Shown here piece by piece: positions 48,545 through 57,121 of a DNA stretch of 64,000 nt (position 1 is the stretch's first letter; each line of letters begins with the position of its first letter). The position numbers and the translations under genes are program-made. Source of the stretch: a virus; the IMG/VR virus record IMGVR_UViG_3300020198_000887, positions 78,295 to 142,294 of that record; one strand, given 5' to 3'. Under the pieces are notes generated by a model. It worked only from the letters and a program-made list of their open reading frames with translations. It was not told where the DNA came from and made no database searches.

Positions 48545-51500
48545 ATGTCATGGAAAAAATATTTTACACCTGTGCCAGTAGGTAAAGAGCTAAGTCCGTT
48601 AACTAGCCTTGGTAACACATCAAAAGCAGGTCCTGCACGAACCAATTATTCAAGTTATTTACCTGATGTATACACGGGTAGTCCAAATAGGATTGAGAGA
48701 TATCAACAATACGAAGTAATGGACAGCGATCCAGAAGTTAATGCGGCCCTTGATATTTTAGCAGAATTCTGTACACAAAAATTGAAGAATGGAAAAAGCC
48801 CATTTACTGTTAAATGGCATAATAAAGCTTCTAATTCTGAAGTGCGAATTCTATCTGAATACCTACAACAATGGAATACGTTACAACATTTTGACACTAG
48901 AATTTTTAGAATTGTGCGTAATGTGTACAAGTATGGGGATGCGTTCTTTATTCGTGACCCAGAGACCCAAAAATGGTCTTGGGTTGATCCTTCTAAAATT
49001 GTAAAAATAATTATAAATGAAAGTGATGGTAAAAAACCTGAACAATATATTATCAAAGATTTAGCACCGAACTTTGAAAATTTGGTTGTCACTCAGATAA
49101 CACCCAACATAAACCCACGACAAGCTGGTGGTGGGATGATGTCAGGATCAGGATATATGGGAACACAATCTGCACAGCGTGGCACTAGTGGACCATACCC
49201 GAGTGCAAGTTCTGGTAGCAGGTTCGGGTTATCTGAAACAGAATATGCAATTGGTGCAGAACATGTTGTTCATATTAGTTTATCTGAAGGATTAGATAAT
49301 AACTATCCATTTGGTAATAGTTTGTTGGAAAATGTGTATAAGGTATATAAACAAAAGGAACTTTTAGAAGATGCTATTCTAATATATCGTATACAACGTG
49401 CTCCAGAACGTCGAGTGTTTCATATTGATGTTGGTAATATGCCTTCACATATGGCTATGGCGTTTGTTGAACGTGTAAAAAATGAAATCCACCAACGACG
49501 TATTCCTAGTCAATCGGGTGGCGGGCAAAACGTTATAGATAGTGCATATAACCCGTTATGTCTCGACCTGACTACTAGAATACCATTATTGGACGGAAGA
49601 ATATTAAGTTTATCTGAGTTGATAAGTGAATTTGAACATGGGAAAGAGAATTGGGCTTATAGTTGTGACCCATCTACTGGAAAAATCGTACCTGGTGTTA
49701 TTAATTGGGCCGGTATTACACGCCGTAACACTGCGGTAATTAAACTTACATTTGATAATGGTGAAACTTTGATTTGTACCCCAGATCATAAAATACCAGT
49801 ATTTGGTAAAGGATTTGTGGATGCCCAACACTTGACTACCGAAGATAGTTTAATAGCATTTAACACCAAACATGCTGCAATATCTGGTGGCAAAACTAAC
49901 AAGTACCAGCAAGTATGGGACCATGAATCAAAATCTTGGATATGGACACATAGAATGGTTGGTGAATTTTTCAGAGAACGAAACAAACATCAGGAATTTA
50001 CATATTTGGAAGAGCATATAACATCTGTTAAATGCACCATTCATCATAAAGATAATAATAGATTCAACAATGATCCACGAAATTTGACTTATATGAATAA
50101 AACAGACCATGTTTTATATCATTCTGCACAAAAGAAAGAATTTTGGGAAAATATGACTATAGAATATAGAGCACAGATGAGTAGCAAAATTTCTAACACA
50201 TTAAAATCCAGATGGGCCAATTTAACACCAGATGAACGGGTATCTGCTATCTGGAACATTCATTCTGCTCAAAAAAACGCAGTATGGATGAGACAAAATG
50301 ACCCAACTACGTTTAAACAATATAAAGAGAATGCTAGTTTGTCTAGAAAAAAATATATTGATAACCATCCAGAATTTAAGAAAAAATTAAATAACAACCT
50401 TGAATCTAGAATTAAAATTAAGAATCAAGAATTAGATGTAACTTTTTCTATGTTACAGCGGGTTGCTGAAAAAGTAAAAGCGGGAACTACTAATAAAAAT
50501 ACAATTGTTTCATTATGTGATAACGATCAAACATTATTAGAAATGGTTCAAACTGCAAATTTGGAAAAGTTGATACATAAAAATCCGCAATGCAAAATTG
50601 ATTTTACAAAATTTGGTAGTAGTAAATTGGATAGACTTATCACTAAATTTGGATATAAAAATTGGAAATCATTTGTAAAAGAAGTGGATAACTTTAACCA
50701 TAAAGTTGTAAAAATAGAAAAAGTAGAGAACCGGGATACTGGTACTATAACTATTGATGGTACTGAACGCTGGCATGGGTATCATACATTTGCAATTGAA
50801 TCTGGGGTTTTTGTCAAAAACTCAATAAATGAGGATTATTTCTTCCCAATGACAGCAGATGGGCGTGGAAGTAAAGTTGATGTATTACCAGGCGGAACAA
50901 ATTTAGGTGAAATTGATGATTTGAAATATTTCACGAATAAATTATTTCGTGGATTACGTATCCCAAGTTCGTACTTGCCAACTGGCGCAGATGATTCACA
51001 AGCATCATTTAATGATGGTCGCGTAGGAACGGCTTATATCCAAGAATTGCGATTTAACAAATACTGTGAACGATTACAGTGGTTGATTACTGAAATATTT
51101 GACCAAGAATTCAAATTATTCATGAATTCTAACGGGGTGAATATCGATTCCGGATTATTTGAATTAAACTTCAACCCACCAATAAATTTTGCAAGTACAC
51201 GACAAAGCGCACTGGATAGCGAGCGCATTAATACGTTTAACACAATTCAAGCTATCCCATACATGAGTAATAGATTTGCGTTAAAACGTTTCTTAGGACT
51301 CACCGATGATGAAATGGCAGACAATGAACGGTTATGGGCTGAAGAAAATGGGCATGGGCAACCATCACATACCGATTCCGCAGGTGAATTACGCAGTGCA
51401 GGATTATCTGCTGCTGGTATAGAAGGTGATTTAGGTATGTCTGGTGATTTGACCGCACCTGGTGATATTGACAACAACATAGGTGAGTTTGGGCAACCTA

Positions 51501-51559
51501 TGGAGTTTAATGCAGTACCACCCGTTGCAGCAAGCCCAACAATACCCCCTGGTGTATAA
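48545..51559 (+). CDS. 20: Portal vertex protein gp20, interrupted by an intein
   Basis: 1004 aa as encoded; removal of a 421-aa intein leaves 583 aa, near T4 gp20 (524 aa). Portal features: VYTGSPNRIERYQQYEVMDS, DPEVNAALDILAEFC, ILIYRIQRAPERRVFHIDVG, NMPSHMAMAFVERVKNEIHQ before the intein and EDYFFPMTADGRGSKVDVLP, GGTNLGEIDDLKYFTNKLFR after it. The portal dodecamer nucleates head assembly and is the DNA channel. A Gly/Ser-rich insertion at about residues 195-225 is a surface loop. Gene spacing to the upstream tape-measure-like gene is 11 nt, and to the following 79-aa gene 7 nt. Confidence 0.92.
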   Translation: MSWKKYFTPVPVGKELSPLTSLGNTSKAGPARTNYSSYLPDVYTGSPNRIERYQQYEVMDSDPEVNAALDILAEFCTQKLKNGKSPFTVKWHNKASNSEVRILSEYLQQWNTLQHFDTRIFRIVRNVYKYGDAFFIRDPETQKWSWVDPSKIVKIIINESDGKKPEQYIIKDLAPNFENLVVTQITPNINPRQAGGGMMSGSGYMGTQSAQRGTSGPYPSASSGSRFGLSETEYAIGAEHVVHISLSEGLDNNYPFGNSLLENVYKVYKQKELLEDAILIYRIQRAPERRVFHIDVGNMPSHMAMAFVERVKNEIHQRRIPSQSGGGQNVIDSAYNPLCLDLTTRIPLLDGRILSLSELISEFEHGKENWAYSCDPSTGKIVPGVINWAGITRRNTAVIKLTFDNGETLICTPDHKIPVFGKGFVDAQHLTTEDSLIAFNTKHAAISGGKTNKYQQVWDHESKSWIWTHRMVGEFFRERNKHQEFTYLEEHITSVKCTIHHKDNNRFNNDPRNLTYMNKTDHVLYHSAQKKEFWENMTIEYRAQMSSKISNTLKSRWANLTPDERVSAIWNIHSAQKNAVWMRQNDPTTFKQYKENASLSRKKYIDNHPEFKKKLNNNLESRIKIKNQELDVTFSMLQRVAEKVKAGTTNKNTIVSLCDNDQTLLEMVQTANLEKLIHKNPQCKIDFTKFGSSKLDRLITKFGYKNWKSFVKEVDNFNHKVVKIEKVENRDTGTITIDGTERWHGYHTFAIESGVFVKNSINEDYFFPMTADGRGSKVDVLPGGTNLGEIDDLKYFTNKLFRGLRIPSSYLPTGADDSQASFNDGRVGTAYIQELRFNKYCERLQWLITEIFDQEFKLFMNSNGVNIDSGLFELNFNPPINFASTRQSALDSERINTFNTIQAIPYMSNRFALKRFLGLTDDEMADNERLWAEENGHGQPSHTDSAGELRSAGLSAAGIEGDLGMSGDLTAPGDIDNNIGEFGQPMEFNAVPPVAASPTIPPGV
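49559..50821 (+). mobile_element. Intein with HNH homing endonuclease in gp20
   Basis: Codons 339-759 (421 aa) of the portal ORF. Block A starts at Cys339 (CLDLTTRIPLLDGRILSLSE), block B is GETLICTPDHKIPVFGKGF, and the end is GYHTFAIESGVFVKN followed by Ser760 as the +1 residue. The penultimate His usual before the final Asn is Lys here. An HNH-type nuclease lies in the centre (IHHKDNNRFNNDPRNLTYMN, from about residue 498). Flanking portal sequence resumes in frame, so the intein must splice for a functional portal. Confidence 0.9.
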
Positions 51560-55681: not shown

Positions 55682-57121
55682 CTATGTTTTAATAGTAAAA
55701 ATGATGTTACCGCAATCCCAATACCGACGATACTTTGCGTTAAACATATTTTTAGATTCAGATAATGATGCATCAAACGATGGTAGAAATGACGATAAAT
55801 TATGTTTTTGTGTTTTATACCTACTAATAATAATATCACCATTCGTCCAACAATATCCAGGTTGTGAAATGCCTTCTTTTGTAAATCCTGCCGCAAGATA
55901 CCCTTGTCCATTTCCTTTGCTAAAATCACAATAGCTAACAATTACTGAATTCGGTAATTTCCCCTTTAAATACGATACCAGTTTACTAACCCCACCGATT
56001 ACGGTGATATCAGATTTTGTGCACATTCTCAAAATCTCGTAATCATACGCGGAATTATACCTAGATTTTCCTATTGACATCATCATAATTAAATCATCAG
56101 CCAAAAATAATCCAAACGCGATGTATGATGAAATAAAGCCTTGAATATGATATGTATTCAAAAAATCTTTCTCGGTTTCTTTGTCAATTTCTCTTATTAC
56201 ACATTTCCGCCCATGAATTCTTGAATTGATGCCTAACCGTGATTTAATCATCGATTTTATAATTGGTTTTTTAGTATGCCAGTCAAAGTCTGTTATATGC
56301 ATCAATGAATAACCAGCATTGTTTACTGAAATTGTTTTATTAAGATGTCGGTACCTATCTTCTGGTATTCCTAATTCTGGATGGTAGCTATGCCACCACA
56401 ACCCATTTAGTTCTATCGAAAGATTTGCCCTTGGTATCAGGATATCTAATTCTTTTGGGGAAATTAATGTCCTATTTGATATGTCTGTTGTAAATCCAAG
56501 GTCATTTATAAACGAAACAATTTCACATTCTTCAACTGACCGCATAGAAGATGGACGTATTGTAAAATTAAATTTTTTACAATACGACGAAACAGTAGTG
56601 TAATCAATTCCTAATTCGTATGCTATTTCACTTAATGAACGTTTTTTTATATTATATTCGTTGTCCAACCAGGCTTGATTTGACAATTTTTCATGAATTA
56701 CCGGTGATATTTTTGGCCGTTTCCAAATATCTTTCATATCATTTCGTTGACTATTGAATTCGACACCATATTTTTGAATCATCGTTTCTTTTCGTTTAGT
56801 ATTAGCCAGCTGCTTTTTTTCAGAAGGTGTATGCTCTTTAGTTTTGGAAACATTTTTTGAAATATTTTCTAATGTACATTTGCAATTGTTAGCCAACCCA
56901 CATCCAATAAACCCAGTACTTATTCTATCAAATTTTTTGATATTCCCATTCTTGCATATATTAGATTCTTGATACAACGCACTGAATATCATTGATGGCA
57001 AGTGCGCACTATCTATTAACGAATTAGTTAACACCCATTCTAACATACTAGGGTTTTTTAACACTAATTTAACATAATGTTTAGGTTTACATTTGATTAG
57101 ATTTAACAATTCTTCTTTCAT
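55682..57121 (-). CDS. Free-standing homing-endonuclease-like protein (Vsr/EDxHD-type)
   Basis: 479 aa. Middle: a helix-turn-helix-like RSLSEIAYELGIDYTTVSSY, then KELDILIPRANLSIELNGLW and WHSYHPELG, HLNKT and LMHITDFDW, a PD-(D/E)XK/Vsr-like nuclease core as in the EDxHD family of phage homing endonucleases. The C-terminal ~130 residues (RMCTKSDITVIGGVSKLVSY) resemble a GNAT-like tail seen in such phage proteins. The N-terminus has Cys clusters (ICKNGNIKKF, CGLANNCKC). It lies on the opposite strand between gp23 and the next structural gene, a typical site for a mobile gene. It has its own sigma70-like promoter (TTGCAT-17-TATAAG). The exact cut site is unknown. Confidence 0.7.
   Translation of the reverse strand: MKEELLNLIKCKPKHYVKLVLKNPSMLEWVLTNSLIDSAHLPSMIFSALYQESNICKNGNIKKFDRISTGFIGCGLANNCKCTLENISKNVSKTKEHTPSEKKQLANTKRKETMIQKYGVEFNSQRNDMKDIWKRPKISPVIHEKLSNQAWLDNEYNIKKRSLSEIAYELGIDYTTVSSYCKKFNFTIRPSSMRSVEECEIVSFINDLGFTTDISNRTLISPKELDILIPRANLSIELNGLWWHSYHPELGIPEDRYRHLNKTISVNNAGYSLMHITDFDWHTKKPIIKSMIKSRLGINSRIHGRKCVIREIDKETEKDFLNTYHIQGFISSYIAFGLFLADDLIMMMSIGKSRYNSAYDYEILRMCTKSDITVIGGVSKLVSYLKGKLPNSVIVSYCDFSKGNGQGYLAAGFTKEGISQPGYCWTNGDIIISRYKTQKHNLSSFLPSFDASLSESKNMFNAKYRRYWDCGNIIFTIKT

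Follow-up and report, generated by a model that had tools for sequence, protein, structure and literature searches.

A class 1-like HNH intein in the portal gene of a T4-like virus, with threonine and lysine in place of the usual aspartate and histidine helpers

Inteins in phage portal genes and inteins without a penultimate His have both been described in mycobacteriophages. Kelley et al. (2016) list six portal inteins in cluster C1 and report that Gly, Lys and Ser occur at the penultimate position (PMC5050341). In the case of a native mycobacteriophage intein with Gly at this position, splicing is complete, and the Gly-to-His mutant is slower, with precursor building up; the block-F His is able to assume the role of the penultimate one (PMC5050341). 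The closest cellular relatives that we found for the intein described here are those of GyrB and GyrA from cyanobacteria and other prokaryotes, which in GyrB occupy the site EGDSAGG/SAKQG (slashes mark splice points) and end in HNFALASGVFVHN before the +1 Ser.

The window that we analysed, 64,000 nucleotides of the virus record IMGVR_UViG_3300020198_000887, carries on its + strand a gp20 portal protein gene (48545..51559) encoding a 1004-aa precursor, or 583 aa if spliced. The open reading frame matches phrog_213 (PHROGs, 6e-104) and, on both sides of an insert, Portal_T4 (Pfam, E=9e-98). Alignment with intein-free gp20s delimits a 338-aa N-extein ending in SAYNPL (48545..49558), a 421-aa intein running from Cys1 to Asn421 (49559..50821) and a 245-aa C-extein plus stop codon (50822..51559), whose first residue is the +1 Ser (TCA, 50822-50824). 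The borders read ...SAYNPL/CLDLTT...GVFVKN/SINEDYFFPM, and the spliced junction lies within the sequence around SAYNPLSINEDYFF. These borders are not guesswork, because intein-free alleles cross the same codon junction without a break. The extent of the intein given in an earlier note on this DNA is therefore exact; the same note placed the site in the portal, which holds, and immediately before EDYFFPM, from which it is in fact separated by three residues (SIN).

The identity of the insert is supported by profile matches above cut-off to Pfam Intein_splicing (2.2e-9) and NCBIfam intein_Nterm (residues 1-80), the latter falling in the N-terminal part of the Hint (splicing) domain (about 108 aa, 49559..49882), with Cys1 (49559-49561), invariant in the family, and block B TPDH (49778-49789), where T74 and H77 are invariant in the family alignment A4. 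The HNH nuclease proposed in the earlier note is likewise present, as the motif HH-D-N-P-NL-H-H at intein residues 162-188 (50042..50122), which matches phrog_7545 (PHROGs, 3e-7) and, below the Pfam cut-off, HNH_3 (4.5e-4); in the same alignment, H162, H163, N171, P173, N175, H184 and H188 are invariant or nearly so. The region that follows (50123..50683), with predicted helices and a conserved GYKNWK, is probably DNA binding. Alignment with gyrase inteins assigns the last 46 aa (50684..50821) to the C-terminal part of the splicing domain, with blocks F and G, comprising Thr396 (F:4, 50744-50746), His409 (F:13, 50783-50785), Lys420 (AAA, 50816-50818) and Asn421 (50819-50821). An AlphaFold2 model of the intein (54-row alignment) has a mean pLDDT of 88, and Foldseek matches it to the solved inteins PI-PfuI, NrdJ-1, Mtu RecA and Ssp and Npu DnaE at 1e-6 to 1e-3; a prediction of the 1004-aa precursor from 9 sequences reached a pLDDT of 44 and was not used.

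With Cys at position 1, TxxH in block B, a C-terminal Asn and a +1 Ser, the window intein has the features that define class 1. Two helpers that are common in this class, though not required, are absent: the penultimate His (G:6) is Lys420, as the earlier note saw, and the block-F Asp (F:4) is Thr396, which that note missed. A class 3 intein, a type that lacks a nucleophile at position 1 and carries a Trp-Cys-Thr triplet, is ruled out, as Cys1 is present and F:4 is Thr rather than Cys, and so is a group I intron, the reading frame being continuous and the splice signals lying at the protein level. Our reading, to which we give a probability of about 0.85, is that of a mobile class 1-like intein inserted into the clip-domain region of a T4-like portal, one with a Lys/Thr pair instead of His/Asp, with probably constitutive splicing and with an HNH domain that serves homing.

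In the corresponding mechanism, an N-to-S acyl shift would start at Cys1, the +1 Ser would take the branched intermediate, and cyclisation of Asn421 would be followed by joining of the exteins into intact gp20. Because the block-F Asp and the penultimate His are replaced jointly, by Thr396 and Lys420, this cyclisation would probably be helped by His409 and an altered pocket. Splicing would probably be constitutive, and, on co-infection, the HNH domain would cut intein-free gp20 alleles, repair then copying the intein in. In empty-site alleles, the ligated extein sequence is that of a normal gp20. We infer from sequence that the window intein splices, that it does so completely before the portal assembles and that its nuclease cuts at this site.

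Relatives of the intein are abundant, and they are found in the same host gene. Viral contigs gave 30 in a close search, each of them located in gp20 and with KN/S as its end; a profile search returned 397, the best 80 of which were fetched, and a second profile search added a large group from a different site in gp20, LPG(G/A)/S. After removal of duplicates, the comparison set comprises 102 distinct gp20-family inteins. Cys1, the block-F His, the C-terminal Asn and the +1 Ser are present in all of them (102/102); matching by regular expression finds TP(D/E)H in 98/102 and the HNH pattern in 95/102. In annotated phage records, a related intein was seen in a single gp20, that of one metagenome-derived genome. 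The window intein thus belongs to a large family specific to portals, of which the literature searched, subscription journals lying mostly outside it, gave no description. The earlier opinion that portal inteins are rarer than others is not supported, given the six reported in mycobacteriophage cluster C1 (PMC5050341) and the more than 100 distinct gp20 inteins found here.

The Lys is the norm of this family. Of the 102 members, 86 have Lys as their penultimate residue (Gln 5, Phe 5, Tyr 2, Arg 2, Ser 1, Asn 1, His 0), as do 50/51 at the window's own site, counting the second intein of L028, the single exception there being Gln. At F:4, the portal family (VGTITID; n=102) has 100 Thr and 2 Cys, whereas the gyrase inteins have Asp at F:4 (VYDIEV) and a penultimate His in 77/77 each. 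The Asp/His state recurs in SP-15, two of the LR756508 gp20 inteins, two gp20 site-d copies and loci L354, L356, L358, L360 and L361; Lys without the Asp recurs in the third LR756508 intein, the site-d copy L353, the ribonucleotide reductase intein L355 and the dCTP deaminase intein of Aphanizomenon phage CL131 (L357). Over the aligned set, 87 inteins are Asp/His, 106 are non-Asp/non-His and 0 are discordant. On the best tree, built with both columns masked, the two positions switch jointly 4 times; well-supported branches give 3 independent pairs (p=0.25), too few for significance. The coupling is not universal: in split DnaE inteins, some of which rank with the fastest inteins known, F:4 is Asp and G:6 is Ala or Ser. 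As the Lys is the family norm and is always accompanied by the block-F change, it is part of a changed active site; judged by these alignments, Lys420 is a fixed, coupled feature of that site and not evidence of a switch. More tentatively, and with the odds slightly against the proposal as a whole, this could be a class 1 subtype whose splicing centre has been rewired repeatedly, the block-F Asp giving way to Thr, Cys or Asn along with a change of the penultimate His to Lys, and whose spread through T4-like portal genes, at several sites, has produced over 100 distinct copies; a His would be harmful in such a centre, so that K420H alone would slow splicing and T396D+K420H would restore the canonical arrangement.

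The insert can be read in other ways. The earlier note took the Lys as a sign of slow or conditional splicing and tied it to capsid assembly: with Asn cyclisation slowed by the Lys, the active portal, and hence head assembly, would have to await a signal. Some inteins do respond to conditions, as described for the mycobacterial DnaB intein (PMC6195587), and the start of head assembly needs gp20 (PMC4493910). However, the Lys is normal for the family, also at other gp20 sites, and a second residue of the active site changes along with it. Of the phage inteins without the His, the one that was tested spliced fully, and more slowly once a His was put in (PMC5050341). The missing penultimate His alone does not predict slow splicing, because of this Gly precedent and because the block-F His, His409 in the window and invariant across the portal family, can substitute for it; by analogy, K420H alone may well not be helpful to splicing. 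No regulatory element was found within the gene, and nothing in this sequence analysis points to an assembly switch. We consider conditional splicing unlikely, and the inference from Lys to slow splicing is not supported.

The loss of the His could also be a step towards a dead element, and nuclease sequences have indeed been lost wholly or partly in some members (the first intein of L028, 160 aa and without nuclease, and the second of L095, 218 aa). This is less probable still, given that both domains show low Ka/Ks (window against L002, about 0.07 for the splicing part and about 0.15 for the nuclease part, synonymous sites being almost saturated), that the Lys is near-invariant, that the inteins have recently spread horizontally and that gp20 is essential, as established for T4, so that a non-splicing copy should be lethal. 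Least probable of all, and virtually ruled out, is a permanent portal domain retained in a single chain, which would suit an open reading frame that is one continuous frame: the splice-junction residues are all kept, in 102/102 inteins, the empty sites are exact and seamless, and the insert aligns to the clip domain, with its subunit contacts and terminase docking, where it should block assembly.

A mobile and probably constitutively splicing intein is the reading that we retain, and its mobility is illustrated by the relatives. The search for intein-free alleles called for in the earlier note was run and yielded many, with DNA seamless across the junction, including the window's closest gp20s, L109 (89%) and L117 (85%), which have no intein and are uninterrupted there. 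A search with the C-extein returned at least 80 loci, all intein-free among the matches listed, which is not an estimate of prevalence. The distribution of the intein on the gp20 tree is patchy and requires at least 3-4 changes. At the DNA level, the inteins of L068/L072 and L089/L090 are 99.9% and 99.8% identical within gp20 flanks of 76-80% identity, and those of L006/L008 are 94% identical against 65-70% for the flanks; on these identities, near-identical inteins in diverged gp20s are the result of recent horizontal transfer, seen in the relatives and not in the window copy itself. Over 115 alleles, the +1 serine codon is TCN in 48/50 intein-bearing and 22/65 intein-free alleles, the other 43/65 intein-free ones having AGY. 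On the tree, this association comes down to 3 independent pairs on starred branches, which is not significant and is confounded by descent; the AGY/TCN difference may mark nuclease-resistant alleles.

By alignment, the window site corresponds to M328/S329 of T4 gp20, in a numbering that agrees with R338, K342 and T349 in PMC4493910; site d lies at the inner clip loop, and the channel loop contains site c, at A353/D354. An unspliced insert at the window site should, to judge from this position, leave no working dodecamer. Altogether, gp20 has at least 8 insertion sites, including TGGG/, VVYDA/ and three in LR756508. Two inteins share one gp20 in L023, L028, L074, L095, L097, L280 and L353, three do so in LR756508, and the L033 gene is also multi-intein (two or three); in some cases, only about 10-30 residues of spliced protein separate neighbouring inteins.

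Other mobile or split elements were observed in the same virus record. In the window, a free-standing homing endonuclease gene (55682-57121, - strand; phrog_3339, 1.9e-96) directly follows gp23, the major head protein gene, on the opposite strand. Outside it, in a DNA polymerase B (L189/L190, G000:C1 at about 56.2-57.9 kb), the YGDTDS motif apparently holds two inteins two residues apart (YGD/..VHN/TD/..), the second of which looks naturally split, with a stop and then a separate downstream frame ending in NNILIHN/S. A Clp-type ATPase (L193, G000:C1 at about 44-46 kb) is apparently broken at Walker A by a naturally split intein (GPTGCGK/C..., the second frame ending in IIHHN/T).

All together, gp20, a marker gene of T4-like phages, emerges as an intein hotspot in environmental phages, with genes that can be mistaken for chimeras or broken copies. 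Through the joint F:4/G:6 switch, Asn cyclisation without a penultimate His becomes open to a simple, direct test, and the portal family may yield splicing domains with a different active site.

The clustering of sites in gp20 resembles that of the haloarchaeal MCM inteins, which occupy four neighbouring sites in the channel/active region of one gene; at the MCM-d site, a Ser/Pro difference between invaded and uninvaded alleles just downstream (PMC10643990) recalls the codon bias at the gp20 +1 position. The MCM inteins differ in host gene and domain of life, and the gp20 +1 difference is one of synonymous Ser codons. The huge phage LR756508 has its three inteins in the same host gene as the window, the third bearing HNH and ending in KN/S; they differ in lying at three other sites, the first two being short (150 and 141 aa) and ending in HN, and a search with the third found one locus only. 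The mycobacteriophage C1 inteins share the portal host, and some mycobacteriophage inteins have, like the window's, another residue (Gly, Lys or Ser) for the penultimate His (PMC5050341). The gyrase inteins, although in another host protein, align with the window intein over its full length (25-34% identity; GyrB about 435 aa, a similar size) and share with it the Hint/HNH order, the NH-V-IE motif before block F and the end G(V/I)FV-N/S; they differ in keeping F:4 Asp and the penultimate His where the window intein has Thr and Lys.
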